Below are positions 3,306-61,576 of a DNA stretch of 64,000 nt, one piece after another. Position numbers and translations under genes: made by a program. The notes beneath the pieces were generated by a model, which ran no database searches, was not told where the DNA came from, and was given only the letters and a program-made list of their open reading frames with translations. The stretch is from Chlorops oryzae. Its lineage: Eukaryota; Arthropoda; Insecta; Diptera; Chloropidae. The DNA lies in contig CM035806.1 of the NCBI GenBank assembly GCA_020466095.1, forward strand, positions 99,331,090 through 99,395,089, given 5' to 3'. Every line of letters begins with the position of its first letter. Positions within the stretch are counted from its first letter, which is position 1.

Positions 3306-4332
3306 CAGAGCTGTAAAAAATTTAAATCATTTCGGATTTAAATCATTTTGATTTATTTATCTTTTGATTGCAATCATTTTAATCGAAAATCATGAAGATT
3401 TAAATCTGATTTAATTCTTTGATGATTGCCTTAAGATGATTTATAAATCACTTCTCTGCAATCAATTGATTTATATTTTGAATTGTCAATCATTTGATTT
3501 AAATCAAAAAGGATTTAAATCATTTGATTTAATTCAAAATGATTTCAATCATGTGATTTAAATCCAAAAAGATTTAAATCATTTGATTTAAATCAGAAAG
3601 ATTTCAATCATTTGATTTAAATCCAAAAAAATTTAAATCATTTTTGAATGCAATCAGAAAGATTTCAATCATTTGATTTAAATACAAAAAAATTTAAATC
3701 AGTGTTGATTTAATTCAAAAATGATTTAAATCACTCTATGTAAATCAAACAAGTGAGACTGATGTAGTAGTAGATATAAAAAGTGCATAACCACTAAACA
3801 GATAGTTTTAGTGAAATATGAAGTGCACTAATTCGGGTTTGTAGTGTCGGGCTTACCTGACCACATCAGTCTCACTTGTTTGATTTACATAGAGTGATTT
3901 AAATCATTTTTGAATTAAATCAACACTGATTTAAATTTTTTTGTATTTAAATCAAATGATTGAAATCTTTCTGATTTCATTCAAAAATGATTTAAATTTT
4001 TTTGGATTTAAATCAAATGATTGAAATCTTTCTGATTTAAATCAAATGATTTAAATCTTTTTGGATTTAAATCACATGATTGAAATCATTTTGAATTAAA
4101 TCAAATGATTTAAATCCTTTTTGATTTAAATCAAATGTTTGACAATTCAAAATATAAATCAATTGATTGCAGCAAAGTGATTTATAAATCATCTTGAGGC
4201 AATCATCATAGAATTAAATCAGATTTAAATCTTCATGATTTTCAAGTAAAATGAATTAAATCTTTTTTTTCTAATCAGGCTGTGATTGATTCTTGAATCA
4301 ATCTTGAAATGATTGATTCATTTACAGCTCTG
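3306..4332. mobile_element. hAT-like foldback element with long inverted arms
   Basis: The element begins CAGAGCTGTAAA and ends with its complement, ...TTACAGCTCTG. The flanking 8-bp target duplication GTATATAT (3298-3305 and 4333-4340) is exact. The arms, about 460 bp each, are nearly perfect inverted copies separated by a short centre of about 90 bp. Each arm is itself built from dozens of short ATTTAAATCA-type units, so the arms are internally repetitive as well as complementary. No coding capacity is seen; it would have been mobilised by a hAT transposase supplied elsewhere. Confidence 0.85.
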
Positions 4333-4555: not shown

Positions 4556-4834
4556 ACATATAATAATTAATAAAATAAATAAATTTAAAAATAGTCAAAA
4601 CAAAAAATGAAATTTTTCTTTTTTCTCAGTCGCTGGTGCTAGGCCATTTTCCTGCCCCTTTTCGCTAGCGAAATGACTGGTTAAAGGTGGCGCATAAAAG
4701 GACGACCTGTCCCCGGCAATGAGATCGTAATGTTAAATTCGCCAGCGTCTTGGATAGGAAAGGGACCGATCTCCGACACCCAGTGACTAGTGAAATCGCT
4801 AGTGTTGTGGTGGCTCCGCTGACTACTGGGATGT
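4556..4834 (+). repeat. dispersed repeat, inverted copy at 34.9 kb
   Basis: About 280 bp here match the reverse complement of 34941-35213 with few differences. The match ends at CTGACTACTGGG, which is one of the terminal inverted repeats of the element at 34941-35865. This is therefore a truncated copy of that element. Confidence 0.75.
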
Positions 4835-6978: not shown

Positions 6979-8313
6979 ACAGGTTGGCTGATAAGTCCCC
7001 GGTCTAACAAAGAAAAACACTTTTTTTTTTGTCAAAATTCGTTTTTATTATTCAACATAGTTCCCTTCAAGAGCGATACAACGATTATAACGACCTTCCA
7101 ATTTTTTGAAACCATTTTGGTAGTACTCCTTCGGTTTTGCCTCAAAATAGGCATCAGTTTCGGCGATCACCTCTTCATTGCAGCCAAATTTTTTCCCTGC
7201 GAGCATCCTTTTGAGGTCTGAGAACAAGAAAACGTCGCTGGGGGCCAGATCTGGAGAATACGGTAGGGTGGGGAAGCAATTCGAAGCCTAATTCATGAAT
7301 TTTTGCCATAGTTCTCAATGACTTGTGGCACGGTGCGTTGTCTTGGTGGAACAACACTTTTTTCTTCTTCATATGGGGCCGTTTTGCCGCGATTTCGACC
7401 TTCAAACGCTCCAATAACGACATATAATAGTCACTGTTGATGGTTTTTCCCTTCTCAAGATAATCGATAAAAATTATTCCATGCCCATCCCAAAAAACAG
7501 AGGCCATTACTTTGCCAGCGGACTTTTGAGTCTTTCCACGCTTCGGAGACGGTTCACCGATCGCTGTCCACTCAGCCGACTGTCGATTGGACTCAGGAGT
7601 GTAGTGATAGAGCCATGTTTCATCCATTGTCACATATCGACGCAAAAACTCGGGTGTATTGCGAGTTAACGGCTGCAAACACCGCTCAGAATCCTCAACA
7701 CGTTGTTGTTTTTGGTCAAATGTGAGCTCGCGCGGCACCCATGTTTGCACAGAGCTTTTTCATATCCAAATATTGATGAATGATATGACCAACACGTTCC
7801 TTTGATATCTTTAAGGCCTCTGCTATCTCGATCAACTTCATTTTACGGTCATTCAAAATCATTTTGTGAATTTTTTTGATGTTTTCGTCGGTAACCACCT
7901 CTTTCGGGCGTCCACTGCGTTCACCGTCCTCCGTGCTCATTTCACCACGCTTGAATTTTGCATACCAATCAATTATTGTTGATTTTCCTGGGGCAGAGTC
8001 CGGAAACTCATTTATCAAGCCAAGTTCTTTGCTTCCACTGTATTTTTTCACAATCTTCAGAAAACAGTATTTTATCAAAACACGAAATTCCTTTTTTTTC
8101 CGATTTTTAGTTCACTAATAACAAAAGTTGCTTCACAATAGACGCTCTATCTTCACAAGACTAATTAGCAACTTAGCAGAACGTCTTTAAATTTTCAGAC
8201 ATTATTTCGAATCATTTGAAGGTTCCACTGAATATTTCAGAAAAATAATAATGCATTTAATACTAGTCGACGCCATTTAGTGTCAACGGGACTTATCAGC
8301 CAACCTTGTTTGA
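6979..8313 (-). mobile_element. decayed mariner transposon
   Basis: Terminal inverted repeats are visible: ACAGGTTGGCTGATAAGTCC at the left and the complement of ACAAGGTTGGCTGATAAGTC at the right. A TA precedes the left end but no TA follows the right end; instead both sides carry the same 58-bp host sequence. The body encodes a mariner transposase on the minus strand that is broken by frameshifts. Confidence 0.9.
7048..8078 (-). pseudogene. mariner transposase, frameshifted
   Basis: Minus-strand segments reproduce a mariner transposase in order. There is an N-terminal helix-turn-helix region (8078-7716), then a WVPRELT motif, then catalytic-core pieces TMDETWLYHY, HQDNAPCH and, in another frame, YSPDLAPSD. 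The last is followed by the usual C-terminal region to a stop at 7048. This is the D,D34D arrangement of mariner. At least two frame changes are needed, one near 7716-7750 and one near 7290, so the protein is not made whole. Confidence 0.88.
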
Positions 8314-12620: not shown

Positions 12621-15600
12621 ATGTCTAAAGACTTGCCGCTTCCTTTGTATGGCTTTGCGATATTCTTTTTGATCTTTTGGGCAGGCAATTGGTTTCTACA
12701 CTTTATGGCTATATTTTATGGAAAATATAAATACAAGTACAAAAAAGCTTGCAAAACTCCGCAAGAGACGCCGCTTTTATCTGTTTCGGTTTTGAAGCCT
12801 TTAATGGGAGTGGATCCAAATCTTGAGCACAACCTTGAGACTTTTTTCACAATGGATTACCCCACCGTAAGATAACTCAAATTTTTAAGTTGATGAATCA
12901 TTTTTTTCAGTTGAATTTCATATTATTAGTACGAGCTTCTATTTTGTGTTGAAAGTTCTGAAGATCCAGCGATAAAGATTGTTGAAAGTCTACTCTCAAA
13001 ATATCCTCAAGTGGATGCAAAATTATTTATTGGTGGCTCAAACGTCGGTGTCAACCCAAAAATAAACAACATGTTTCCTGCCTATGAAGCGGCCAAGTAT
13101 GAGCTGATTTTGATTTCAGATAGTGGCATTAAAAGTGAGTAAAAGAACTTAATAATATAATGATAAGGAATTTAAATTATTTTTGTTATTGTTGTTGTAT
13201 AAAATGAAAAACAGTGCGCAATGACACATTATTAGATATGGTGCAAAATATGACAGATCGATACGCCCTTATTCACCAAATGCCATTCACATGTGATCGA
13301 GAAGGTTTTGCCGCTACTTTCGAAAAGGTAATTTCAAGTTTTATTCCCAATTTTCAAATAAGAGTATCGTTTACCTTAATGTAGAAAGGCCCTAACAACA
13401 AATTTAGAATTTTACAGGAGAGAGAAAAATCTTTATTAAAACCAAAAAAATAAAGAAAATAAATTTCTTTTGATGCAGTTTAAGGGGGTCTTCTCATTGA
13501 AAAAATTCTTATTTGAAAACGCAAAGAATAATTGAAAACTTTTTTTATTTATTGTATTACAAAAGGTTCAAAGTAAATTTAAAAAAATTTTTTGCCTCGA
13601 TACGTGGGCTGTTCAAAAAGTAATGAGACTTCAAAGTTGGTGGTGAAAAAAAAGGTGCCATCACGGCGGCCACGATTCCGGGTCTCCGGAGCGTCCGAAA
13701 TGGAAAAAAAAAAAACGGGGTTATAATCAGTATAGATGTAATTCTCGGGTGAACCTCAAGCTTAATTTTGTGATTTTTTTTGACAAAATGGCGGCCATTC
13801 AAAAAAAAAATTTCAATTTCGGGCTTTTTTTTTGTAGTTTAGTGTAAAAAAAAAAATAGTAAACCATTTTTTAAAATTATGGTCGAGGTTCACCCGAGAA
13901 TGGTGACAATTCTGCGTCGATTCCACTTTGTTTCATGAAAATCGGTTCAGTTGAACTGGAGATATCATGGCCGCCAGTTCGAAAAACGTGGTTTCGAGAT
14001 AAACGCGTTTAAAGTTTGAAGCAACGCAAAAATTACTCGTTTTAGCGCAGATCTTGCTCGACAAAGAAGGCTATATCCTCTAAACTATTTCGAATTTCAA
14101 AAAATCCTTTTAGGGGCATATTCACAACTACCCAAGCTATAAATAAATGCAAAAAAAAAAGTTGTTCAATGAGAAGACCCCCTTAAGTTTAATAATGGAG
14201 CACCTACTCAAACAAAATTGTATTTCTTTTTTTTTATAAAGTTATGTCATATAGGGCTTTTTGAGTGTGAATTTCTTAAAAGTTAGTTTATTTATTATTA
14301 TTGTTAGTTATGGCTTTTTGGATCAAGTGAAAGGTTGCACGTTTATCGCAGAATAATGATGATAACTATAAAAAAAGGTCCCGGTCCCACGGGAGGGATC
14401 GTTTCTCATGAAATTACCCGAAGAATAAATTTAAATAGAAATATATTAAACGGAAAATTCATGCCAACTATGTTGCATAGGGTAGAGTATCATGAAAATG
14501 AGCGCAGTTAGGAGGCATCAATATTTTTAAATGTAAATGTAAATGATCCAATTATTTTTTGTAAACAGAATTTTTTCCCTTTAAGACAAGCAGGAGTGAT
14601 GTCTTCCATACAATGTTTCGATCTTTGAGGAAATAGCTCATACTCGGTATTTATGTCGGTTTTGTAATAGATTAATTGCGATTAGTCATATCAACGGGCG
14701 CGTAACGTATTAACAGCGATGAATTTGAGTGTTTTTGTTATCTCACATTTTTTTCTTTGGTAAGGCTGGGCCGGTTTTTTTTTTTGTGTTAAAAACGCAT
14801 TTAAATTTTACAAATAAATAACATTCACCCGTGTTTTTGAAATTTTCATACGATTTTCCGGGGGTTCATAAGTGCATAACTTTGAGTGGACGTGGAGCAA
14901 TAAGTAGGCGTGGCAGCATATCAATGTACAGCTGTAAGACCAGTTCCAAATTTCAACTCAGTGGATCCAAAATTGTGAAATTTAGCTACCACAATAGAAG
15001 TGAGTTAGGGCTTCATTTTTAAATGATTGTATATCCGTTATTTTTGATCTAAGAACATTATTTTTTTTTATCATGGTGTATTTGAGGGCGGTATATCGAA
15101 ATATGCAAAAAAGTGAATTTTGGAAAAGAATTTAGTTGAGGTCTTTCTACATTAAGGTAACGGTATGCAAATAGATTTTATTTTATTTTCGTTCTTGGGT
15201 TGATGTAAATAAAACTACTTATGTATTTACTTATTTTGTCCAACGTTTCGATCTTTTTTGGGAATCTCTGCAGGATCAGTCCGATTCTAAATATTCTAAA
15301 TTTTTCACTGTGGATTTGAAAAAAAAAAAAAAAAGTAAAGCAGCAATAATCTCGAACGTTTTTAAGCAAGGGTCATCACATTCTTTTCTTTATTGATGCA
15401 TAGAACACTTCCTTTTTGCGCGGATTATAATATTCATATATAAGAGAATAATAATTTAAACTATGCGGAGAAAGCAATTTAGACTTGGGCGTATTTTCAA
15501 GTTTTCCAATCACTTATGTACATGTTTTTTTTTTTTACATTTTATTAAATCATTATTAGCATGTTTCCACATAGTGAATTAACTAAATGAATTAGAGTTA

Positions 15601-34940: not shown

Positions 34941-35865
34941 CCCCAGTAGTCAGCGGAGCCACCACAACACTACCGATTTCACTAGTCACTGGGTGTCGGG
35001 GATCGGTCCCTTTCCTATCCAAGACGCTGGCGAATTTAACATTACGATCTCATTGCCGGGGACAGGTCGTCCTTTTATGCGCCACCTTTAGCCAGTCATT
35101 TCGCCAGCGAAAAGGGGCAGGAAAATGGCCTACCACTAGCGACTGAGAAAAAAGAAAAATTTCATTTTTTGTTTTGAATTTTTTTAAATTGATTTATTTT
35201 ATTAATTATTATATTTTTTTTGTTTATATATTTTTTATTTTAAATCTTTTTTTATCTTACTTCTTCTTAAAATTTTCTCGCCTCCACCAAGCCCCGAACC
35301 GCTGACCAACAGATCGCTGGGCGAACGCCTTAACCATTTCGCTAAACGAACGAATTTAAATTCTTGGTCAAAATGCTCACTTGAGTTGCTAGGGTTGCTC
35401 AGATTTTGGGAAACGTATTTAACGAAATTTTTCACTCCAAAAATTTTTTACTTGAAAATGAACCATTAAAAAAAAAAATAAAAATAAAACCTTAAAAATT
35501 TAGAGGAAAATGTTTGTCTTCCAAAATAACTGAACTATGAACAAAAAAAAAAAACTAATTTATAAAAAAAGTAAAAAATTTAGGAAAAATTCTCTCCGCC
35601 CGCAGGGATTGAACCCCGAACCTACCGGCTGTCGAGTCACAGTTTGAACTACTGAGCTATCGAACGCTTGACGGGCAAATGATCAGAATGCGAGGTTAAA
35701 AGCAGACAACAGCAAAAACAATCATACGCAGCGAATAGGGAAATGTGAGCTGAGGCCTATCTACTCTTTCAGGTTCATGTGGTAGGCGAAATGGCTAGTC
35801 ATCAAGGACTGGCACTTTGGCATGTCACAAATATCGGGGGCGACCTACTGACTACTGGGATAGGT
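34941..35865. mobile_element. inverted-repeat element, CCCAGTAGTCAG ends
   Basis: CCCAGTAGTCAG (34942-34953) and CTGACTACTGGG (35853-35864) are exact inverted ends. The left 270 bp match the reverse complement of 4556-4834. Two tRNA-like segments on the minus strand (35236-35340 and 35595-35670) lie inside, so this may be a composite. Confidence 0.55.
35595..35670 (-). repeat. tRNA-derived sequence, minus strand
   Basis: Read on the minus strand it contains GATAGCTCAGTAGTTCAA (A-box-like) and GGGGTTCAATCCC (B-box/T-arm-like) about 45 nt apart. A second, weaker one at 35236-35340 has GGTTAAGGCG and GGTTCGGGGC. They are probably SINE heads or tRNA pseudogenes, because the arms are not all intact. 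Confidence 0.45.
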
Positions 35866-49889: not shown

Positions 49890-50167
49890 TCTACAGGCCT
49901 AGTTGTGACACTCTTGTTGTACATGTGCGATATATTTACACAGTAAAAACTAAAGGTTTAAAATTAAATCTTTTCTGTATTAAATTTGAATTTCAATACA
50001 AAAAAGTCTTATTTTAATACAATTTGGTCTTAAATGATCTCAAAAACGAACAAATTTCTCAAATTGTCAAATTGTTCCCGCGATTATATTGCTATCATAC
50101 ATACATACGACGCGTCTATAGTTCGATTTTCTCGAACTTTGATAAAAGGCAAATGCCTGGTGGGCCC

Positions 50168-50817
50168 TGTTGTGAGTTACAACATTCGTGTACTCACTGT
50201 ACGACCTAGCGTGAATCGAGCAGCCAACCGTTTTCGCAAGAACAGCGAATACTGGACAGAAGCAAACAAAAGAAATGCAACGATCGGAGACAATGACACA
50301 ATATCGTCACCAAAGCAGAACTAGAACTGGAACGCAGAAGTAGGTCAGCGGTAATGAGAGCAACGACTACGTCAGCACCAGCTGTTATACGAAGTTATGG
50401 AGAAAAGCGAAATTGGGCAATGGGCGATTGCACAGCAGCAGTTCGTCATTTGCGGAAGTGTTGCAGATTTGGCGAGAAAGTGCAGCCTAAGCACTTTCTA
50501 CTTATAAAAGAGAAGAACCAACATCGAAAAAGGGACTCTTGATTCAGTATTCAAAGTCTCAACTCCGGTGCACGTACTCACCCAAGGGCCACGACAACGG
50601 AGCGTAGACTTAAGTGTTAGACAGGGAATTAGGGAAGTCCTTCGAGTCAATTAGGAGCTAGAGTAGGATCTAAACATTGTAAATTAAAGTAATAAGTAAA
50701 TCAATAAAAGGACTTAAATGAATTCCCTGTGTCCTGGTTTTTATTTATAAAGGATATTTAGGTCTGGGTATTAGTCTGGAGGAGTCAGACTGATACATTC
50801 CCCTAATAATCACAACA
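50168..50817 (+). repeat. 5' LTR
   Basis: 650 bp, TG...CA ends. A TATAAAA box at 50503-50509, an initiator-like TCAGT at 50544 and an AATAAA signal at 50703-50708 give a plausible promoter and polyadenylation layout. Confidence 0.95.
50503..50509 (+). promoter_or_regulatory. TATA box in 5' LTR
   Basis: TATAAAA in the context CTTATAAAAGAG. The nearest initiator-like TCAGT is about 40 nt on, slightly far for a standard TATA-initiator pair, so the exact start of R is open. Confidence 0.5.
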
Positions 50818-50820
50818 TTT

Positions 50821-50838
50821 TGGCGCAGCCGGTATTCG
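50821..50838 (+). other. primer-binding site
   Basis: TGGCGCAGCCGGTATTCG begins three bases after the 5' LTR. A TGGCGCAG(T/C)CGG core is found in insect Gypsy elements of the 297/17.6 type, where it pairs with a serine tRNA; that assignment is inferred here. The same core adjoins the old LTR at 9747. Confidence 0.75.
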
Positions 50839-51264
50839 ACCGACTTTCGGTTGGATTCGAATCAAGGATAAGAATTTTTAAGGAACTATCCTAATGCGTT
50901 TGTGCGGTGTGGCATATGAAAATAAGAGTTGAGTGAAGCGGAACCTTTTTTGGTTTTAAAACCTGATAAAATCAGACCCGGGTGAACGAAGCTCTAAAAT
51001 TCATGTGTCTAGCGGCGCAGGCGTATACGGTGGTTAAATCGAAGTAGGTATCCAGGAGTAACGTTTGATCGTGCTCTGCCGGTACTCCTTTCAGAAAAAT
51101 TTTTATCCTGTGAAAAAAAAATTTTGTATGTAATTTTTTTTTTTAAAAACGGAACAGTGAGATTCATGAGTCCAAAAGCAAAAAAAAAAATAAATAAATA
51201 AAAATAAAAAATAAAATCAACGGTAGCAGATTCATCGCTGACGAGGGAATACATTGAAAAAAAA

Positions 51265-51309
51265 ATGTTAGCAAACAGAAGAATGAAAATGGTGAGTACA
51301 GATTTTTAA
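51265..51309 (+). other. short upstream reading frame containing a splice donor
   Basis: ATG at 51265 opens a 14-codon frame before gag. Within it, ATG|GTGAGT at 51291/51292 is a strong donor. With the acceptor at 58196-58197 it could make a spliced message for the third frame. It may also dampen gag initiation. Confidence 0.4.
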
Positions 51310-51362
51310 CTAACATATTTAACTACCATATTTAAAATTTTTTTTTTTTCCGAAAATTTCCT

Positions 51363-53360
51363 ATGGAACAGGAATTAGAAAAACTTAGACAGACTTTACA
51401 TCAGTCAGAAATAGATGCGAAATCAATTGTAGCAGATACGTGGGATTTAGTAAAGGAGGTGAATTTGAATAAGGAAATCTCGCAACTAATTAAAGATCAA
51501 GCCGTGTTAGGCCAATTTACAAAACTGGAAGAAGCGAGTTTCCTCATTAACAAAGTAAAAGATACAGTAGGTCCTTTAAGTCAGGTATCAAAAGATAAAG
51601 TTAAAAAATTAGAAGAAACTATAACACTCCTTGACAGAAACTGTAAGAAGTTAAGAAAACAAATTGAAGAAAAGGATAATTTAATTAAAGTATCGGAGGA
51701 GCAGAACGACAATCTCAGGGAAATATTAAAACGAGCTGTAGGAAAAGAAACAGCAGAGGTGATCGAGCAGGATAGAGCAAGTCTGAAAGCAAGTGAAGAA
51801 GAAGTAAGTTATTTGAAACAAGAAGTTAAAAAATTGAAAAACAACCTAAGGACAGTCTGTGCCACTTCTCCCACTCCAAATCCGACACGAAAAATAAGAA
51901 CGACAAGTACAAATACAGTAAATATTGAATCTTCACCTGTTGCGTTCACAAGCACAGCCCCACACCAAAATAACATTACACCGGTGACGGTGTCAAAGAC
52001 AAATCCTTCAATAAAAATTATTGAACCTAACAGTGACACAACTAATTTTCAATCTGAACCCTTTGTTGCGAGCAGTTTGCCTTCAGTAAGAATGACAATG
52101 AATAATCCAGTACAAGTAGATGAGCTAATGAAAAAGGTAACTCGCCTTGTGCCTTACTTCTCAGGATCAAATAATCCAGAATTAAGCCTGGAAGTGGACA
52201 AATTTGTAACAGGAATAGAATTATTAAAAAGCGTAGTAAATGGTAGCGATATAAGGGACATTATTAAATGCATAAAAAATAGACTTTCTGGCGTAGCTTA
52301 TGTAAAAATTAACCAGCGGACAATTAATAGCCTGGATGAGCTTTGTGACATAATAAAAAGGGAGTTCTTAAAGCGTAGGAGTCTCGAAACGATTAGATCA
52401 GAAATAGCAGGAGCAGCGCAACAGGATACCGAGAGAGCGTCAGCATTTGGGGGAAAATTGGAGTTTTTATTAAATGAGGCAGAAGAAATTATCAGTAAGT
52501 CGTGGAATTCTTCCGAAGCGGTATCCGCATTAAGCGAGTATAGAAAACTGGCCACAAACAAGTTCATTTTTGGCGTTAGGGATCCCTATATGCAAAACAG
52601 ACTCGAAACTAATAAGGATAAGCCGATTTCTGATTTAATCAAATTAGCAGAAGAGTCTGAAGACCTTCACATTGAAAATAATATAAAATCTAGTTCTAAC
52701 AATTTTGTGACTCAATGCCCTCCCACAGCCCCGCAGCCAATTATTTGTTCTTTTTGCAAGACAGTAGGTCATACTTGGGACATATGCCAGCAAAGAAGGA
52801 ATACCCCTTACTGCGAGGTTTGTGCCGAATATAGGCACCAATATAGCAGAAAATGCAATTTAAGCGATAGCAAGAACACACGCTCGGATGCACAAACTTG
52901 CACTTATTGTGGAAGAAGAGGCCATGTAGATAGTAATTGTTTTGGCAGGCTTAGGAATCTATTTTGCAATATATGCAAAACAAAAGGTCATGAAAGTAAT
53001 AGATTTTGTAGATCAAGGCAGGAAAACACCAATGGGCAACCAAATCAGCAGAATATCAGACAACAATTCAATAATTCAGAGCAAAATATAGAGCAGCCAA
53101 ATTCAAACCCGAAACAGCATTTTAATCCATTCAGATCTCAAAATTTAAACACTACAAATTTCAATGAAATAGGAAATCAGAATTTCAGTACACAAAATGT
53201 CAATCAAACAACTAACGAGCCGGGCAGAGAAAACAATCGCGCGCCTACAAATAGGCAATGTTATAAGTGCTCGAAATATGGGCATATAGCGAGATTTTGT
53301 AACTTAGAGCAACAGGATAATAAGAAGGGAAACTCTCAGCGGCCCGGTCAAGGCCTATAG
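51363..53360 (+). CDS. gag: Gag polyprotein
   Basis: 665 residues from the ATG at 51363 to TAG. The N-terminal third is helical and charged, with a coiled-coil-like run (residues ~60-125: KVKKLEETITLLDRNCKKLR). A Ser/Thr/Pro-rich linker and then a capsid-like middle part (residues ~245-440) follow. The C-terminal part is nucleocapsid-like. It has three canonical CX2CX4HX4C knuckles (CSFCKTVGHTWDIC from residue 462, CTYCGRRGHVDSNC, CYKCSKYGHIARFC) and two variants with five residues before the last Cys (CEVCAEYRHQYSRKC, CNICKTKGHESNRFC). Five knuckles are many for a Gypsy Gag. An Asn/Gln-rich spacer separates the last one. Gag would assemble the cytoplasmic particle and bind the RNA. The last codons overlap pol and contain the frameshift site. 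Confidence 0.93.
   Translation: MEQELEKLRQTLHQSEIDAKSIVADTWDLVKEVNLNKEISQLIKDQAVLGQFTKLEEASFLINKVKDTVGPLSQVSKDKVKKLEETITLLDRNCKKLRKQIEEKDNLIKVSEEQNDNLREILKRAVGKETAEVIEQDRASLKASEEEVSYLKQEVKKLKNNLRTVCATSPTPNPTRKIRTTSTNTVNIESSPVAFTSTAPHQNNITPVTVSKTNPSIKIIEPNSDTTNFQSEPFVASSLPSVRMTMNNPVQVDELMKKVTRLVPYFSGSNNPELSLEVDKFVTGIELLKSVVNGSDIRDIIKCIKNRLSGVAYVKINQRTINSLDELCDIIKREFLKRRSLETIRSEIAGAAQQDTERASAFGGKLEFLLNEAEEIISKSWNSSEAVSALSEYRKLATNKFIFGVRDPYMQNRLETNKDKPISDLIKLAEESEDLHIENNIKSSSNNFVTQCPPTAPQPIICSFCKTVGHTWDICQQRRNTPYCEVCAEYRHQYSRKCNLSDSKNTRSDAQTCTYCGRRGHVDSNCFGRLRNLFCNICKTKGHESNRFCRSRQENTNGQPNQQNIRQQFNNSEQNIEQPNSNPKQHFNPFRSQNLNTTNFNEIGNQNFSTQNVNQTTNEPGRENNRAPTNRQCYKCSKYGHIARFCNLEQQDNKKGNSQRPGQGL
53327..53333 (+). 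promoter_or_regulatory. -1 ribosomal frameshift site GGGAAAC
   Basis: In the gag frame the bases read G GGA AAC, the canonical X XXY YYZ slippery heptamer. A slip of -1 enters the pol frame, which is open from 53324 (just after a TAA) and overlaps the end of gag. Ten bases downstream, CCGGTC (53344-53349) and GACCGG (53360-53365) can form a 6-bp hairpin with a 10-nt loop; the gag stop lies in its 3' arm. Confidence 0.88.
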
Positions 53361-56300
53361 ACCGGAAAGCCCTTAATACATTCGAAAATGAAAGGCCTAA
53401 TTTAGTTACAATAAGGACGCATGTAAAACGAGACAAAGAAGAAGAAACAAAAAAATTGAAGGATACAATGAATTTAAAGGACCTAAAAGTAAACAAAATT
53501 TTTTTTGATGAATTAGACGAAAGAGAAAGGGATAATAACATCATAAACTTACGCGGTAGAAAAGAAATGTCATTACAAGTAGAAGATTCTAGTGAGAAAG
53601 AGGAAAGGAAAGGATATAGACAGGATATTGCCACAAAGTTAGTCACACATTGTCAGAAGCTTAAAAAGAAGGAGACCGTAGAGGCAGTATCGGAGGACGC
53701 GTTTATAGTGTTTCCATGCGGACAAACTAAAACGAACAAAGTCACTTTATTGGTGGACACTGGCTCTGATACAAGTTTAATTAAAATAGAAGCACTAAAA
53801 GACATGACTAATTTCAATGTTTCAGAAACAAGCCGGCTCGTAGGAGCATTCGGGGGTCACATAAATAGTGCAGGGACTACTGAAATTTCCCATTCTGATT
53901 ATCCGGAATTAAAATTCAAACTTCAGGTGTTGCCCGAAGGAAGCAGAATTCCGGCAGATGGACTTTTAGGTAGAGATGAGCTATGGAATCGATCAATAAT
54001 AGATGGTATCAATAAGGAAATCATTTTTGGTCTTGGGGGACGAATTACGTCACTACCCCTGATAGCTTCTAATCCTAGTGAAAGGATTTGTGTTGCTGAG
54101 GCAGTCACAATCAATGCTAGGGAAGCGAGAATAATAGCAATATGCGCAAAAGGACTCGAAGGAAATGTTGTATTGAATAAAAAAGAGATAAAACCAAATG
54201 TTTTCGTAGGAAGCGCGCTTACGAGAATCATTAATGGAAAAGGTTATGTACCAATCTTAAATACGAATAGTAGTGCCATCAGATTGAGCACCGATATTGA
54301 ATTAGAATTTGATCGAGAAGAAAATTTCGAAGAATTACACATCCCAAATGTAAATCAGTTGAATAAATGCAGGAATGAAGATATTCGCTATGACCTCTTA
54401 GTAAAAACGGTTACTTTAGACAGTAGTCTTAATAAAGATGAGTTGAATTCAATACAAAGCATATTTAAGGATTACTCAGATGTTTTCCATTTACAAGGAG
54501 ATAAACTTTCATACACTACAGTCCTGAAGCACCAAATACCCACAGCAGTAGACCACCCACCCATTAATTCTAGGCAGTACAGACTGCCGGAACACCAAAA
54601 GAAAGAAATAAACTCCCAAGTGAATAAAATGCTTGAGGAGGGCATCATCTCACAAAGCAAATCTCCATGGAATTCTCCAATAATCTTAGTCCCTAAAAAA
54701 TCAGGAAAAAATGGTGAAAAAAAATGGAGACTGGTAGTAGACTTTAGAAAATTAAATGATATCACGATCAAACAAGTTTTTCCAATTCCGCGGATTGACG
54801 AGATCCTTGACCAACTAGGTTACAGCCGTTATTTTTCAACACTAGACTTGGCCAGTGGCTACCACCAAGTGCTATTGGACGATAATGATAAGGAAAAAAC
54901 AGCATTTAGCACAGGTTTAGGACATTTCGAATTTTCAAGGATGCCGTTCGGGCTCACAGGGGCACCTGCGACCTTTCAGCGCATAATGAACAGTATCTTA
55001 ACGGGCTTACAAGGAATTGACTGTTTTGTATATCTCGATGACATCGTCATCTATGCCAGAAATTTAAATGAACACGAGATGCGGTTAAGAAGAGTACTCG
55101 AGGTATTGAGAAAAAACAATCTAAAATTGCAAACAGAAAAATGCAATTTCTTACAAAGAGAAGTGGTATATTTAGGCCACAAATGTTCTGAAATAGGAGT
55201 CTTGCCAGACCCGGAAAAGGTAAAATGTGTGAAAGACATAGCGGCACCAAAAAATATTAAACAGTTACAGGCATTTCTGGGTTTAATCAACTATTATAGA
55301 AAGTTCATTCCAGATGCTGCAAAAATCTCACTGCCCTTGACAAAATTATTGAGAAAAGAAGTAAAATTTGAATGGACTATAGATTGCCAAAAGGCAATGG
55401 AACAATTAAAAAACGCAGTCACAAGTCCTCCCATCCTCCAATACCCAGATTTTGAGAAACCATTCATTTTAACCACAGATGCTAGTAATGAAGCTCTAGG
55501 AGCCGTCTTATCTCAAGGTGAGCCAGGACAAGACCTCCCAATATATTACGCTAGTAGGGCGCTTAGTGCCACCGAAAGACGTTACTCAACGATAGAAAAA
55601 GAGTTTTTAGCAATAGTGTGGGCAGTAAAGAATTTTAGGACATATCTTTTAGGAAAACATTTCAAAATCTTTACAGACCACAAACCATTAAAAGGAATAT
55701 TTAATTTAAAGGACCAGGATACAAGATTAGGACGTTTTCGACTGAAACTTTTAGAATATGATTTTGACATTTGTTATAAGCCCGGGAAGAACAATTTAAA
55801 TGTAGACGCTTTAAGCAGAATAACGCCCTTAAAAAATAAAATAAATATTGTAACTAGATCACAAACGACAACTGTAGAGGAAGCAGAAGGTAACCCACAA
55901 AATGAAAAAGTTCAAAACGTGAAAGGAGAAGACACAGCTGTTTTTCTTTCAGATCAGGGCGAAATTCAAAAGGTAATAAAGATTTTTCATGACACCCCAA
56001 TTGGAGGTCATAAAGGTTTCTTTAAGACGTATTTAAGAATACGGAGTCAATACAAATGGGAGGGCATGCAACGCCAAATTAAAGCATATATAGATACATG
56101 TAAATTTTGCCAAAAAAATAAAAGCTCAAAAATAGACAAAATGCCTTTGACTATCACGGACATATCCCATCGACCATTCGACAAGGTTTACATGGACATA
56201 GTTGGTCCACTTCCGATCTCGTCAAGAGAAAATAAATACATCCTAACTTTTTTAGACGACTTTTCTAAGTATTTCATCTGCGTGGCAATTCCAGATGCTG

Positions 56301-57865
56301 AGGCATCAACTGTGGCGCGAGCATTTTTCAACGAAATAATTTCCAAGTTCAACATCCCTAAAGTATTGGTAACCGACAATGGTACTAATTTTACATCCAC
56401 ACTTTTTAAAGAAGTTTGCAAAATTTTAGGCGTAAAGAAGTCACAAACTTCCCCATACCACCCCCAAGCGAATGGCTCATTAGAAAGAAGTCATCGCCCA
56501 TTGGCAGAATACCTTCGGAATTTTGTTTACGAAGACGGAACTAACTGGGATGAATGGCTGCATCATGCGATGCACGTGCATAACAATACAGTTCATTCAT
56601 CCACGAAGCAAACACCATGTAGAATATTATTCGGTTTTGATTTCGAGATTCCCGTCAAACTAAGACAGAAACCTGCTCCGATTTACAATGAAAATGACTA
56701 CAGTAAAATTTTGAAGTACCAAATTCAACGAACTTATGAGCTAGCAAGAGAAAATCAGAAATCCGCTAAAGAAAAAGCTAAAAAATATTATGACAAGAAC
56801 TCAAAAACACGAGACTTTTTGGTAGGAGACAAGGTTTGGTTGAAAAACCAGAATAGAAAAAACAAATTTTCTCCCATTTGGGATGGACCATATGAGGTTA
56901 TTTCCAATCCGACGTCAACAAACGTACGCTTAAGAATTAAGGGTAAAGAAAAGACTATTCACAAAAATTTAATAAAAAAATGTCATGAGAAGCAAGAACA
57001 AGTATGTGCAATAAAAAAAGACATAAAAATTTCGGCACAGAAAATCGAAGAATCGCTTAAAGAATTGGGCGAGAAAGGCTTAAAGAAAGAACATCGTTTG
57101 GTTGTAAAACGATCACCTAGTGGGGAAATAAACAATTTTTTAAAAAATAAAGAAAAAAACAGATACGCTAACGTACCGTGCCTCGATCACAGCAGAGTAA
57201 AACTCATAAACGCAAATGAAAGCGGCTCTAATTACATTCATGCCAACTACGTGAGCGCGGTTAAAAATGCAAAAGAATATATAGCAACGCAGGGACCATT
57301 AAGAAACACAACAAATGATTTTTGGCGTATGGTATGGGAACAGAATTGTTTCAACATAATAATGTTAACAAGAATAAAAGAAGGAGGGGTAGAAAAATGT
57401 TACCAGTATTGGGGAAAAAATGAGGGAGAAATTTTTAAATGCAATCAATTTGAGATAAAAACAGCTAAGAAAATTTCAGAAAACGACTTTGTAATAAGTC
57501 AACTAGAAATAAAAAATTTGAACAAGGGGATTTCGCGCAATATTTTGCATTGGCAATTTTTAACGTGGCCCGACAATGGCACGCCCAAACCTAGTGCACT
57601 GCTAAGATTTTGGGACGAAATTCAGCAACAAAGCAAACCGAAAAAATCAAAAACTGTAGTACATTGCAGCGCCGGCATCGGCCGCACTGGTACATATATA
57701 GCGTTAGATATAGCACTTACTCGTTGGACATTGGGAATGGAAATAAGATTTCCGGAAATTGTTAAAAAAATTCGAGCTCAAAGAGCATATTCTGTTAGTA
57801 GTCCGATTCAATACATATTCTTGTACAGAACATTAATGCAGTATGCAAATTGTAATCGGATTTAG
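53327..57865 (+). CDS. pol: Pol polyprotein fused to a tyrosine phosphatase domain
   Basis: One uninterrupted frame. The first clear ATG is at 53468, but entry by -1 slip at 53327 is more likely. Domains in order: retropepsin-type protease with LLVDTGSDTSLI (catalytic Asp codon 53756); reverse transcriptase with WRLVVDFRKLN, RMPFGLTGAPATFQ and catalytic YLDD at 55031-55042; RNase H with TTDASNEALGAVLSQ, EKEFLAIVWA, TDHKPL and NVDALSRI; and integrase. The integrase has the HHCC zinc-binding N-terminus (GGHKGF to CKFCQ) and a D,D35E core (Asp 56195, Asp 56375, Glu 56483). It then has a GPY/F-type C-terminal module (WDGPYEVI). No chromodomain is seen. Instead the frame continues through a charged linker of about 60 residues into a full classical PTP domain (57155-57856). 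All catalytic residues checked are present, so every Pol activity could be functional. Confidence 0.95.
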   Translation, partial: GKLSAARSRPIDRKALNTFENERPNLVTIRTHVKRDKEEETKKLKDTMNLKDLKVNKIFFDELDERERDNNIINLRGRKEMSLQVEDSSEKEERKGYRQDIATKLVTHCQKLKKKETVEAVSEDAFIVFPCGQTKTNKVTLLVDTGSDTSLIKIEALKDMTNFNVSETSRLVGAFGGHINSAGTTEISHSDYPELKFKLQVLPEGSRIPADGLLGRDELWNRSIIDGINKEIIFGLGGRITSLPLIASNPSERICVAEAVTINAREARIIAICAKGLEGNVVLNKKEIKPNVFVGSALTRIINGKGYVPILNTNSSAIRLSTDIELEFDREENFEELHIPNVNQLNKCRNEDIRYDLLVKTVTLDSSLNKDELNSIQSIFKDYSDVFHLQGDKLSYTTVLKHQIPTAVDHPPINSRQYRLPEHQKKEINSQVNKMLEEGIISQSKSPWNSPIILVPKKSGKNGEKKWRLVVDFRKLNDITIKQVFPIPRIDEILDQLGYSRYFSTLDLASGYHQVLLDDNDKEKTAFSTGLGHFEFSRMPFGLTGAPATFQRIMNSILTGLQGIDCFVYLDDIVIYARNLNEHEMRLRRVLEVLRKNNLKLQTEKCNFLQREVVYLGHKCSEIGVLPDPEKVKCVKDIAAPKNIKQLQAFLGLINYYRKFIPDAAKISLPLTKLLRKEVKFEWTIDCQKAMEQLKNAVTSPPILQYPDFEKPFILTTDASNEALGAVLSQGEPGQDLPIYYASRALSATERRYSTIEKEFLAIVWAVKNFRTYLLGKHFKIFTDHKPLKGIFNLKDQDTRLGRFRLKLLEYDFDICYKPGKNNLNVDALSRITPLKNKINIVTRSQTTTVEEAEGNPQNEKVQNVKGEDTAVFLSDQGEIQKVIKIFHDTPIGGHKGFFKTYLRIRSQYKWEGMQRQIKAYIDTCKFCQKNKSSKIDKMPLTITDISHRPFDKVYMDIVGPLPISSRENKYILTFLDDFSKYFICVAIPDAEASTVARAFFNEIISKFNIPKVLVTDNGTNFTSTLFKEVCKILGVKKSQTSPYHPQANGSLERSHRPLAEYLRNFVYEDGTNWDEWLHHAMHVHNNTVHSSTKQTPCRILFGFDFEIPVKLRQKPAPIYNENDYSKILKYQIQRTYELARENQKSAKEKAKKYYDKNSKTRDFLVGDKVWLKNQNRKNKFSPIWDGPYEVISNPTSTNVRLRIKGKEKTIHKNLIKKCHEKQEQVCAIKKDIKISAQKIEESLKELGEKGLKKEHRLVVKRSPSGEINNFLKNKEKNRYANVPCLDHSRVKLINANESGSNYIHANYVSAVKNAKEYIATQGPLRNTTNDFWRMVWEQNCFNIIMLTRIKEGGVEKCYQYWGKNEGEIFKCNQFEIKTAKKISENDFVISQLEIKNLNKGISRNILHWQFLTWPDNGTPKPSALLRFWDEIQQQSKPKKSKTVVHCSAGIGRTGTYIALDIALTRWTLGMEIRFPEIVKKIRAQRAYSVSSPIQYIFLYRTLMQYANCNRI
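57155..57865 (+). other. classical protein tyrosine phosphatase domain at the Pol C-terminus
   Basis: About 235 residues, with the conserved motifs in canonical order. They are KNRYANVPCLDHSRVKL (pTyr loop and substrate Tyr), YIHANYV, YIATQGPL, DFWRMVWEQ, IIMLTRIKEGGVEKCYQYW, HWQFLTWPDNGTP (general-acid Asp, codon 57572), VVHCSAGIGRTGTYIALD (nucleophile Cys, codon 57665; Arg, codon 57683) and RAQRAYSVSSPIQYIFLY. Such domains hydrolyse phosphotyrosine. The wording is closest, from memory, to the PTPN9/Meg2 type. In the Q loop the first of two usual glutamines (QTxxQ) is replaced (SSPIQ), while the second is kept. That may slow phospho-enzyme hydrolysis. No intron interrupts it, as expected for capture through RNA. 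It may act while fused or be released by the protease. Confidence 0.93.
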
Positions 57866-58072
57866 ACCCAGATTTCCGTCGTGAAAAAAAACATACCGCG
57901 GAAATGCAGACAAGATGCAAAACCCCGCTACCCAAAAAGAGTGTTATATTTCGCTTATTTATTTTTGTTTGCATTCCCGTTTTCGATATTTTTTATTTCT
58001 TTTTCTGGACAGCAAAAGCAAGAAGGTATCGGGTATCCAACTTTGCGAAATGGTCAGTCAACTCATAAATAA
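57866..58072 (+). other. in-frame extension after the pol stop, with hydrophobic segment
   Basis: After TAG (57863-57865) the same frame stays open for 68 codons to TAA. It encodes a basic stretch (KKNIPRKCRQDAKPRYPKR) and then a strongly hydrophobic run of about 22 residues (VLYFAYLFLFAFPFSIFFIS). There is no ATG, so it is not a free-standing gene by the usual rule. Stop readthrough would give the phosphatase a C-terminal membrane anchor. It may instead be a remnant of a longer ancestral frame. Confidence 0.4.
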
Positions 58073-58195
58073 GTAAAAGCTTTTGACAATGCAATTTTCT
58101 AACTAATGTTTAGACCAGGTAGATCGTGTAGAAAATATGAACAATAGGAAATAGGGACTCAGGGCATATTAACGTGATTATTTTTGTGTCTTTTT

Positions 58196-58197
58196 AG
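58196..58197 (+). promoter_or_regulatory. candidate splice acceptor before ORF3
   Basis: ttatttttgtgtctttttag is a strong pyrimidine tract with AG, about 110 nt before the ORF3 ATG. Paired with the donor at 51292 it would make a subgenomic message, as known for env of insect errantiviruses. A second donor-like GTAAGTAT lies at 58268-58275. Confidence 0.45.
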
Positions 58198-58307
58198 GCA
58201 ACCTTGAGAAGCCACGGACCACTAAGAGAACAAAAAGGAAACAAATCAACAAGCGTAAGAGTAAAGAGTAAGTATATAAAAAAAAAAAAAAATTTTTTTT
58301 GAATAAA

Positions 58308-59162
58308 ATGACCACCGACATGACCGAGAAACAAAACATTACTTACAAAATAGGAAAAAGATCGACTGTTATAACACAGGATGATTACCACAGGGTAATT
58401 AATAACCGGTGGTTAAATAGTGCGCATATCGATGTTTTTATGGACTGGCTGTTGGGTTTGCATTATTCCATTCAAAAAGAAGTGCATGTATTCAGTTCCT
58501 TTGCCTATCAAAGTATGAAAGCGGCAAGGGAAGCACCCAACAAGGCAATAGCCGAATTCCGGATAAAGCCGTTGATAAAAGGCATTGATATGAGCACAGT
58601 TAAAACATTCATTTTTCCAATATGCGAGAGTAACCATTGGATGTTAGTAGTAGCAACAACAGATCATACATACCTATTGGATTCTCTCAAGCCACATAGC
58701 ACGGTAGAAATCTTTGCAAATATTGAATTTTTTTTCGGAAAGGTTAGAGAAATAGTAAAGGACATGAGCTTTTCTCAGGAAAGAACTTGTGTATATCCTA
58801 ACTGTCCGCAGCAGGATAATACGATTGATTGCGGGCTGTTTACACTGAGATTTGCAGAAAATCTTTTTGAGTCAATTGAAGCAGGAAGAGGGTACAACCC
58901 AGACGAAAAAATGTTGGTCGGGGAGCAAATCAGTTTATCCAGAGAATTATTGGGGGCAGTTATGAGAGATTGGAAGGAAATATCACAGGATCAAAAAGAG
59001 ATAACATTGACGGAAAGAAAAATGTTGACTAAAATATTGAAATCTTTAAACAGAGCCAAGAAAAGAAATACAAGAATCGGGAAAAAGGTAGCATTGAGAG
59101 GAAAGGTGTTCAGTCTTAAGATTAGCGGGAAAAATAAATTTTCAATAAGAAATTGCACATAA
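58308..59162 (+). CDS. Ulp1/SENP-like (C48) cysteine protease, ORF3
   Basis: 284 residues from the first ATG (58308; the frame upstream is closed by TAA at 58269). The fold signature of SUMO-type proteases is visible. NNRWLNSAHIDVFMDWLLG resembles the 'WLnDevInfYm' start of the C48 domain. The catalytic His is in ESNHWMLVVAT (residue 110), the Asp in YLLDSLKPH (125), the Gln (169) and the Cys (175) in CPQQDNTIDCGLF. His-Asp and Asp-Cys spacings of 15 and 50 fit SENP/Ulp1 proteases (17 and 53 in SENP1). The C-terminal ~60 residues are Lys/Arg-rich and may bind nucleic acid or localise the protein to the nucleus. It likely cleaves SUMO or a similar modifier from proteins. Particle processing, as by the related adenovirus-type proteases, is an alternative. 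It stands where env is found in errantiviruses. Confidence 0.9.
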   Translation: MTTDMTEKQNITYKIGKRSTVITQDDYHRVINNRWLNSAHIDVFMDWLLGLHYSIQKEVHVFSSFAYQSMKAAREAPNKAIAEFRIKPLIKGIDMSTVKTFIFPICESNHWMLVVATTDHTYLLDSLKPHSTVEIFANIEFFFGKVREIVKDMSFSQERTCVYPNCPQQDNTIDCGLFTLRFAENLFESIEAGRGYNPDEKMLVGEQISLSRELLGAVMRDWKEISQDQKEITLTERKMLTKILKSLNRAKKRNTRIGKKVALRGKVFSLKISGKNKFSIRNCT

Positions 59163-60684
59163 AGTATGTGGGTAATTATTTTTTTTTCTTTAAATTTTTT
59201 TTTATATAACACAACGGTGGAGGGATTCAGGTTCAGGAAAAAGGTGGAGGGTAGAATAGAATAAGACTATATGTAAGACCTCGAAAAACGCAACAACACT
59301 AATAGTTGCTGAAATTGTCAAAACAAAAACTTAGATATATATATATATAAAAAAAAAAAAAAAAAAAAAAAACACAAAAAAAAAAAACAACAAAAAAAAA
59401 AACAAAAAAAAAAAAAAACAATAATAAAAAAAAAAAACGTTACATTAAACACATTAAATAAAATTGTTTTTTGAATTGAAAACATACCTTGAAAGTATGA
59501 ATTGAAAATAACAAACGTGAAAAAAAAAAACCGAAATTCGAAAATTGAACAAATTGATGAGAAGAAGAGAGATAAAAAAAAAATGGAAATTGAAAACATA
59601 CTTTAAACAAATAAAAAAATAATAATTAAAAAATCCACGCTAAACTTTGAGAAAATGTAATAGTTGTTATTCTAAAAAATAATAATTTAATAATTGTAAT
59701 ATTTGCGTATGGTTATATAAAATGTGAGAAAAACAAATATATTACGAGATATATTAGAAAAAAAAAAAAAATAATAATAATAATAATAAATATTCAAAAC
59801 AAAGTGTTCATTCGAAAAATTTTTATAATTAATTGTAATAATTAATTTCGGTTTTAAGCAAAGAATGTTATTCGAAAATTTTGTATTAATTTGTAATAAT
59901 TTATTTTGGTTTTAAGAAAAGAATGGTGATCTACAATTTTGTATAAAGAAACTATGTTTGGTTTTAAGACAGTTAATTAGCAAGCAAAGAATGGTAGTTT
60001 ACAAATAAGAATGACTAATATTTTTAAGTAAACATCGGCAGCCGCTCTGGTACATCAACATGGCTCATCAACATAACAACTAAAGAACATCATGAGGCAA
60101 CCGTCTAAATTGCCCAGCAACAACTTCCGGCACCGAAGAACAGAGTAAATCAGTATAAAAGACAGCCGTCCCAATGTCTCGTAGTACAACAGCAAAGACT
60201 TTGACAGAACCGTTTCACAGTCACGATGCTCGCGACTCCGTTAAGAGGGGAGAGTTGGCAGTCAATAAAGACTCAAGAGCTATTGGTCGACAAAAAACTA
60301 CAATCTTCGAGCATACATCAGATATCCACACATGGCCATTGTCAAGGTCGAATCATAATTGCGTCATCAGCGCGTTTTGGGAATAACAACAAATTTTACC
60401 CAGCTGCATTTATTTAATTTTTCAAGGCCGAATCAGAATTGCTGCACCAGCGGTTTTTGGAAAAGTATCAACGAAATATCAACAGAACCTACTCGACATT
60501 AAGTCAATGAAACATAATAGCGGATGCATTCGAGAGGAGTACACAAACACACAAAAAAAGGAGAACAACACAACACCAAGGCATAATCAAGATATATCGT
60601 CTTGAGGGCACGAAAACAACACCTTACTACCCTAAGGACTAATTGCCGTCACGATAAACGCGACTTATTCAAAAGGAGGAGGGA
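59163..60684 (+). other. long A-rich non-coding tail of the retrotransposon
   Basis: About 1.5 kb between ORF3 and the 3' LTR. 59335-59445 and 59755-59800 are nearly pure A with AT-rich spacers. 60050-60670 is less biased and has only short frames (for example 60174-60386) without family resemblance. It may be the 3' UTR and packaging or export signals. Confidence 0.6.
60671..60684 (+). other. polypurine tract
   Basis: AAAAGGAGGAGGGA directly precedes the 3' LTR, the expected primer for plus-strand DNA synthesis. Confidence 0.9.
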
Positions 60685-61334
60685 TGTTGTGAGTTACAAC
60701 ATTCGTGTACTCACTGTACGACCTAGCGTGAATCGAGCAGCCAACCGTTTTCGCAAGAACAGCGAATACTGGACAGAAGCAAACAAAAGAAATGCAACGA
60801 TCGGAGACAATGACACAATATCGTCACCAAAGCAGAACTAGAACTGGAACGCAGAAGTAGGTCAGCGGTAATGAGAGCAACGACTACGTCAGCACCAGCT
60901 GTTATACGAAGTTATGGAGAAAAGCGAAATTGGGCAATGGGCGATTGCACAGCAGCAGTTCGTCATTTGCGGAAGTGTTGCAGATTTGGCGAGAAAGTGC
61001 AGCCTAAGCACTTTCTACTTATAAAAGAGAAGAACCAACATCGAAAAAGGGACTCTTGATTCAGTATTCAAAGTCTCAACTCCGGTGCACGTACTCACCC
61101 AAGGGCCACGACAACGGAGCGTAGACTTAAGTGTTAGACAGGGAATTAGGGAAGTCCTTCGAGTCAATTAGGAGCTAGAGTAGGATCTAAACATTGTAAA
61201 TTAAAGTAATAAGTAAATCAATAAAAGGACTTAAATGAATTCCCTGTGTCCTGGTTTTTATTTATAAAGGATATTTAGGTCTGGGTATTAGTCTGGAGGA
61301 GTCAGACTGATACATTCCCCTAATAATCACAACA
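60685..61334 (+). repeat. 3' LTR
   Basis: 650 bp, no difference from the 5' LTR noticed by eye; AATAAA at 61220-61225. Confidence 0.95.
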
Positions 61335-61576
61335 GCCCCCAGTGCACTGTATCTGGGATCAGTACTCATGGAATAAGGATTTTTTTATTTATATTTTTTT
61401 ATTTATGAAGTTTATTTCAGATAAACTTAAAATCTCCATTTTACCAGTTTTTTTTTTTACCTGTAAGGTGTTTTTTCTTAGGTAACGCGGCCCCATTTTT
61501 CATACGCCCAGTGGGCCCTTTGACCCCCAGTCCGCCCTTACCCACCAGATCTATTTCCATCCGTCTTTCTCTTGAC

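Follow-up and report, generated by a model that had tools for sequence, protein, structure and literature searches.

Errantiviruses and other Ty3/Gypsy elements that bear an envelope (Env) gene belong to the Metaviridae. They have long terminal repeats (LTRs), a gag gene, a pol gene in the -1 frame for protease, reverse transcriptase, RNase H and integrase, and a 4-bp target-site duplication. An element with these features apart from the Env gene is located at positions 50168-61334 of the window, by which we mean the whole stretch of 64,000 nucleotides of Chlorops oryzae DNA that was analyzed (contig CM035806.1, positions 99,331,090 to 99,395,089 of the forward strand). Like the errantiviruses, its relatives carry a Baculo_F-type Env. 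Unlike in the errantiviruses, its Pol continues into a protein tyrosine phosphatase (PTP) domain, an open reading frame (ORF) for a putative SUMO-protease-like protein is present, and the copy in the window is Env-less.

Other retroelements are also known to contain host-type modifying enzymes. An ALKB-type demethylase is described as captured by an orchid Gypsy element (PMC9289625), and cytosine methyltransferases are described in LTR elements (PMC5890265). Those enzymes act on nucleic acid, whereas here a protein phosphotyrosine domain is found at the Pol C-terminus together with the SUMO-protease-like ORF. In the open-access listings searched, no LTR element with a tyrosine phosphatase was found. 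Neither phosphatase nor Ulp1 occurs as a word in the main text of PMC11952523, PMC12992720, or PMC13172572.

There are PTP domains in several insect viruses. Bracoviruses and ichnoviruses possess PTP families, and a Cotesia PTP (P0132) resembles the element PTP in lacking Gln at the position of PTP1B Gln262. Unlike the element PTP, these are separate genes packaged by wasps, with no polymerase fusion. Some are without the catalytic Cys (PMC3573978), and P0132 has WFE instead of WPD. The baculovirus ptp is a captured host phosphatase that ends in the particle, as the element PTP is predicted to do. It is, however, a separate gene of a DNA virus, and its activity is dispensable for the reported effect (PMC3320614). 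Among cellular proteins, PTPN9 (PTP-MEG2) is the tree neighbor of the element PTP and its top solved structure, with 38-40% identity there. PTPN9 bears an N-terminal CRAL-TRIO/SEC14 domain. Neither CRAL-TRIO/SEC14 nor any further PTPN9 domain is among the Pfam matches of the element Pol, and the Gln262 position is changed in the element.

A phosphatase domain at the end of Pol

The open frame for Pol and the PTP is located at 53324-57865 (+). It overlaps the end of gag and has its stop codon at 57863-57865. Pfam identified the reverse transcriptase at 54692-55183 (+; PF00078, RVT_1, E-value 1.3e-35), followed by RNase H at 55448-55759 (+; PF17917, 1.6e-37). The integrase zinc-binding domain (PF17921, 2.1e-18) and core (rve, PF00665, 3.9e-18, to 56464) are found at 55955-56485 (+), through the last residue of the D,D35E motif. 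The residues of that motif, counted on the translation, are D914, D974, and E1010, with 35 residues between the last two. The match to a protease (RVP) is weak, with an E-value of 0.011 that is under its Pfam cut-off. A fast-evolving linker (56972-57145, +) connects the integrase to the PTP, and similarity between some relatives changes abruptly within it.

The PTP domain (57146-57838, +) matches Y_phosphatase (PF00102) at 3.8e-76 over amino acids 1231-1461, which covers the profile from 1 to 233 of 234. The motifs KNRY (from 57155), WPDNG (57566), and HCSAGIGRTG (57662) are all present. The key codons are located at 57572 (the WPD Asp), 57665 (the nucleophile Cys), 57683 (Arg), and 57800 (Ser at the equivalent of Gln262). 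With a complete domain, HCX5R, the WPD Asp, and KNRY, the window PTP is a classical PTP of class I. An AlphaFold2 model of the domain has a predicted local distance difference test score (pLDDT) of 93.3. Its top neighbor in the PDB is PTP-MEG2/PTPN9 (6l03), with a template modeling (TM) score of 0.92 by query length. The two LTRs, 650 bp each (50168-50817 and 60685-61334, both +), show 0 differences, and GCCC is found on both flanks (50164-50167 and 61335-61338). A preliminary description of this DNA had claimed a single frame from protease to PTP, every major PTP motif including HCSAGIGRTG and WPD, and LTRs that look identical, so that the PTP belongs to the element. Each of these was recovered here, with the protease as the weak member of the series. 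By its LTRs, target duplication, primer-binding site, polypurine tract, and order of Pol domains, the window element is a Ty3/Gypsy LTR retroelement.

Other copies were explored with the PTP as a query against the 442-Mb genome from which the window comes, and 150 of 570 first-look candidates were scored. All 150 match the PTP. Thirteen of these matches, among them that of the window, span the full length with identities of 97-100%, and many more are at about 45-60%. Sixty loci were then read. These were the 20 best (L001-L020) and 40 divergent ones (L021-L060), hand-picked among stop-free matches that are mostly full length and many of them in long frames. The PTP is found in one open frame (at least positions 8-222 of the 245 in the query) in 54 of the 60 loci, and the other six were excluded from this set. 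In 38 of the 60, located on many contigs, a single frame contains a complete integrase and a complete PTP. The remaining 22 were excluded from the families, the selection analysis, the integrase tree, and the codon models. At 85% PTP identity, the 38 loci represent 10 families. All 40 divergent loci possess integrase pieces on the same strand as the PTP. These are 52-92% identical to the window by piece and 73-81% where the integrase is complete in one frame. One locus (L008) has a single TAG near the end of the PTP.

The fusion is also present outside of this genome. A search of 5.8 billion proteins, with the integrase-PTP part as query, identified two metagenome Pols, P0241 and P0242, with the same integrase-PTP fusion at 47% identity over 99%. 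Among the 120 hits listed, no further integrase-bearing Pol has PF00102 in the precomputed domain column. Scans of IMG/VR with the PTP, the SUMO-protease-like protein, the Cotesia PTP, and an integrase alignment gave zero confirmed relatives. A tree of integrases was built from the 38 in-frame loci and 35 Pols from the protein-search list. In this tree, P0243 and P0247 fall into one group with the 40 PTP-bearing Pols, with support of 100/98. Among the listed hits of the protein search, some Gypsy-type Pols (P0255, P0276, P0332, P0259, and P0261) have different additional domains according to the precomputed Pfam column. These are PF00443, which we take to be ubiquitin hydrolase, PF01661, presumably Macro, and PF01585.

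The preliminary description had allowed that the junction of integrase and PTP could be an assembly join or a one-off capture, which copies without the domain and reads that fail to span the junction would reveal. Instead, integrase and PTP share one frame in copies on many contigs. Because the 150 scored candidates, the 38 in-frame loci, and the Pols on two metagenome contigs agree, an assembly join or a chimeric contig is effectively ruled out and is given next to no weight. Nothing was found in its favor. The same description treated the locus as a Gypsy retrotransposon with a captured PTP. The PTP is indeed in the element, but the idea of a single element has to give way to that of a lineage that has diversified and in large part bears an Env-like ORF. 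The PTP fusion is a trait of this retrovirus-like lineage, which is probably of insects, judging by the type of element and the Baculo_F-type Env of relatives, and is neither an accident nor a one-off capture.

The origin of the PTP can be approached through a tree of 44 domains, comprising 15 element rows, the two metagenome fusions, and 27 others hand-chosen from hit lists. The element PTPs adjoin the PTPN9 group. One clade with PTPN9 was not rejected (p 0.197), nor was a clade of the element PTPs alone (p 0.174). A LAR-type origin was tried as well, and grouping with LAR D1 was rejected by the approximately unbiased (AU) test (p 6e-5). Plain sequence searches put LAR-type proteins first because their two PTP domains add up. 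The Cotesia PTP P0132, the single wasp-related protein in the tree, is grouped with those of the element, but the support is weak (87/67). Among the predicted viral structures of BFVD, the first named matches are bracovirus and ichnovirus PTPs, with ranks 1 and 3 nameless. The earlier suggestion of a cellular or virus-borne PTP holds in its cellular part, since the element PTP is of cellular type and nearest to PTPN9/MEG2. It may have been captured by the element via RNA.

Selection on the phosphatase and its possible roles

The PTP is under purifying selection between families, about three times weaker than that on the integrase. A maximum likelihood codon model with 10 family representatives gave an omega (ratio of nonsynonymous to synonymous rates) of 0.158 for the PTP and 0.057 for the integrase. 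Fixing omega at 1 was worse by 304 log units for the PTP and by 1046 for the integrase. The median pairwise ratio is 0.25 for the PTP (26 of 45 pairs finite) and 0.06 for the integrase (24 of 45). In the linker, it is about 0.73 (32 of 45 pairs). Neutral runs were made for five pairs only, and in each of these the PTP amino-acid identity (0.39-0.66) exceeds the maximum of 200 runs per pair. Of the claim that the element had kept its PTP active, the keeping is borne out in this respect, and any activity of the enzyme is a prediction.

The catalytic residues tell the same story of retention. Of the 56 rows in the alignment, two are from the metagenome Pols and 54 from the loci, including that of the window. 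W147 and D149 of the WPD motif, the nucleophile C180, and R186 of the P-loop are kept in all 56. In 14 representatives, 31 of the 245 columns are invariant at a mean identity of 0.45.

The means of expression can possibly be recognized near the end of gag. GGGAAAC (53327-53333, +), read as G_GGA_AAC in the gag frame, is a likely -1 frameshift site that is found in seven of eight families. It is followed at 53341-53397 (+) by a conserved hairpin and a candidate GGCC/GGCC pseudoknot. Seven further stretches from seven families were compared, and six of them keep GGGAAAC, with L065 having GAAAAAC. All eight sequences align without gaps over 100 columns, and each has the sequence of the hairpin and, downstream of it, a GCC that could pair with its loop. 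This arrangement suggests a -1 frameshift cassette, through which the PTP would be made at the level of Pol and packed as Gag-Pol-PTP.

We propose, with a probability of roughly 0.55, that the PTP at the end of Pol, kept by selection, is synthesized within Gag-Pol, enters the particle, and removes or holds phosphotyrosine on proteins of the host cell in which the element is replicating. The Pol-PTP would be produced by the -1 frameshift at GGGAAAC and be packaged along with Pol. The protease of the element may then free the PTP by cutting in the linker, whose fast evolution would suit a flexible joint or a protease site. Once in the cell, the particle-borne PTP could act early on host phosphotyrosine signaling. 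The SUMO-protease-like protein may be a second eraser, and a guess at its target is the SUMO-dependent nuclear silencing of flies by PIWI-interacting RNA (piRNA).

A number of observations weigh against this proposal. Within families, the ratio of nonsynonymous to synonymous differences (pN/pS) in the PTP ranges from 0.18 to 1.19 on small numbers, and the synonymous divergence (dS) between families is near saturation. The stop-free state of the 40 divergent loci is uninformative. These loci were picked among stop-free matches, so the absence of stops proves little and was not used as evidence. P0243 and P0247 belong to the same clade of integrases, and their Pols show no PTP. The most parsimonious history on the integrase tree would be two gains of the PTP rather than one gain and two losses. 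The shared loss of Gln262 favors the latter history without proving it. The hairpin in the window is no more stable than shuffled sequences (z-score 0.01), and no covariation was found in its pairs among the eight sequences, as the pairs hardly vary.

The active site also contains changes that count on this side. At the position of PTP1B Gln262, none of the 56 element rows has Gln, and the window has Ser (residue 225). In alignment A1, 24 of the 25 other PTPs do have Gln there, the sole exception being the Cotesia protein with WFE for WPD. In PTP1B, Gln262 steers the water that releases the enzyme, and Gln at this position is usual in active PTPs, although it does not define the fold family. 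The Gly of the P-loop is replaced by Asn in five of the 14 representatives and 16 of the 56 rows. Because of these two changes, some element PTPs may be weak or dead enzymes. Since no element PTP has Gln at position 262 and all retain Cys, Arg, and Asp, slow turnover is predicted as part of our proposal. The element PTP would form the phosphocysteine but hydrolyze it slowly, and the intermediate would accumulate. The PTP may in this manner partly hold its targets.

It is very improbable that the PTP is a passenger, a captured stretch carried without use. The two relatives of the integrase clade without a PTP in Pol would agree with a passenger, as would the within-family ratios near 1 in two of the 10 families. 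The omega from the codon model strongly disfavors it, and so does the retention of catalytic residues in every row. A non-enzymatic role in the particle, with the PTP used for binding or as a structural module in analogy to one documented role of the captured baculovirus PTP, is possible but would not be our first expectation. The changed Gln262 and P-loop Gly positions would be in keeping with such a module. There are also viral parallels. The baculovirus PTP is a structural protein of the virion with activity dispensable for the behavior studied (PMC3320614), and bracovirus PTPs without the catalytic Cys were proposed as traps (PMC3573978). Mere binding would not need the Cys, Arg, and Asp that the element PTPs keep throughout, unlike the Cys-less bracovirus proteins.

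The PTP could also dephosphorylate the element's own Gag or Pol products and thereby time assembly or integration, which we consider unlikely. Fusion to the integrase would place the PTP beside the integration complex. It is also kept in Env-less copies and hence is not only an infection factor. Two loci, L047 and L048, point the other way, with nearly identical PTPs and integrases that differ at 13-36% of nucleotides per window of 60 codons. In such windows, their nucleotide identity is 64-87% in the integrase and 94-99% in the PTP. The aligned pieces are 78% identical in the integrase part, 93% in the PTP, and 88% downstream. Because these two share a PTP despite differing integrases, a tight co-adaptation of integrase and PTP is argued against. 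The opposite pattern is found between L023 and L038, with amino-acid identities of 90% in the integrase and 50% in the PTP. The linker looks like a recombination joint between the integrase and the PTP. A further point against our proposal of a selected, host-directed PTP is that the similar block of L047 and L048 extends downstream (88% over the Env part). What they share is therefore the 3' part from the linker on and not the PTP alone.

Downstream frames and the rest of the element

Relatives of the window element possess a Baculo_F-type Env ORF downstream of Pol-PTP, for example L028 (3082-4560), L034, L044, L038, and others. All four of the relatives' downstream ORFs that were scanned match Baculo_F (7e-9 to 2e-5), three of them above the curated cut-off. 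Downstream sequence was read for 1.5 kb in L001-L020 and for 2.3 kb in L021-L060, so the counts of Env and of the SUMO-protease-like stretch are lower bounds. An Env-like stretch was found downstream of the PTP in at least 44 of the 60 loci, with only a C-terminal piece in L024-L027 and L029. In L050, the Pol-PTP frame continues in frame into the Env part. A deletion is likely there because the PTP match stops early. No Env piece was found in 50001-61500 of the window with two Env queries. Judged by these matches, the Env of the relatives is of the errantivirus type and the window copy is an Env-less member of the lineage.

Among the 20 loci of the window's family, 12 have an Env piece, and six (L001, L002, L003, L006, L007, and L012) have the SUMO-protease-like ORF without one. 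Five of these six diverge from the Env-bearing L004 at about 30 nt or less past the PTP stop, and L003 does so at about 230 nt. A stop in the last three PTP codons was tolerated in this comparison. The PTP is retained in all six and so was not lost along with Env. Because the PTP is kept without Env, its use does not appear to be only in the spread between cells.

The third ORF of the element (58308-59162, +) matches a C48 peptidase domain (PF02902, 8e-14) and contains the His, Asp, Gln, and Cys motifs. Its first solved relatives in the PDB are SENP7, SENP2, and Ulp2. By domain match and motifs, it is a SENP/Ulp1-like (C48) protease, for which SUMO cleavage is predicted. The preliminary description mentions neither this ORF nor the Env of the relatives. 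The C48 stretch was found in at least 21 of the 60 loci, and eight copies cover query 13-240 or more in one frame. These eight copies, from two families, keep the His, Gln, and Cys motifs. AlphaFold2 on the single sequence gave a pLDDT of 36.9, and the model was not used.

The complete LTR element is 11,167 bp, with a primer-binding site, the gag ORF, the Pol frame, the third ORF, and a polypurine tract inside. The primer-binding site TGGCGCAGCCGG was read from the sequence at 50821-50832 (+) and is presumably the complement of the 3' end of tRNA-Ser. A leader, ATGAAAATG, is followed by a splice-donor-like GTGAGT (51283-51298, +). The gag ORF (51363-53360, +) encodes 665 amino acids with matches to a CCHC-type and a C2H2-like finger, each under the Pfam cut-off. 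The region 58176-58275 contains a putative acceptor that is rich in pyrimidines and ends at 58197. After it come a short stretch that is very basic and, at 58268, GTAAGT. If the leader and its GTGAGT were joined to the acceptor at 58197, splicing could possibly yield a small basic peptide or a message for the C48 protein. A low-complexity, A-rich stretch (59163-60000) is located between this ORF and the 3' LTR. The polypurine tract AAAAGGAGGAGGGA is located at 60671-60684 (+).

Other repeats are present elsewhere in the window. These include a partial mariner-type transposase at 7178-7750 (-; PF01359, 5.8e-24), an inverted repeat of 403 nt at 97% (3366-4262), and a second inverted pair (4558-4830 with 34942-35214). 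A dispersed repeat at 13451-14002 and three further places has up to four copies. A Pfam scan of four other ORFs of the window gave no match.

Implications for errantivirus-like elements

A wider picture can be offered tentatively, and we hold it as speculative. Insect endogenous retroviruses may carry a kit of two erasers, the PTP in Pol and the SUMO eraser beside it, which the particle would deliver against host signaling and silencing. The PTP and the part downstream of it would recombine at the linker between viruses, and bracovirus PTPs may be from the same mobile stock without Gln262.

If the proposed role of the PTP is correct, the fusion of a selectively maintained phosphotyrosine domain to Pol would give a retrovirus-like element a new route into host signaling. 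The effect of errantivirus-like particles on the cells that they enter would become directly testable. The lineage has built-in controls for this purpose, since some members have an Env and others do not, some relatives carry the PTP and others apparently lack it, and the integrase and the PTP have changed partners in nature.

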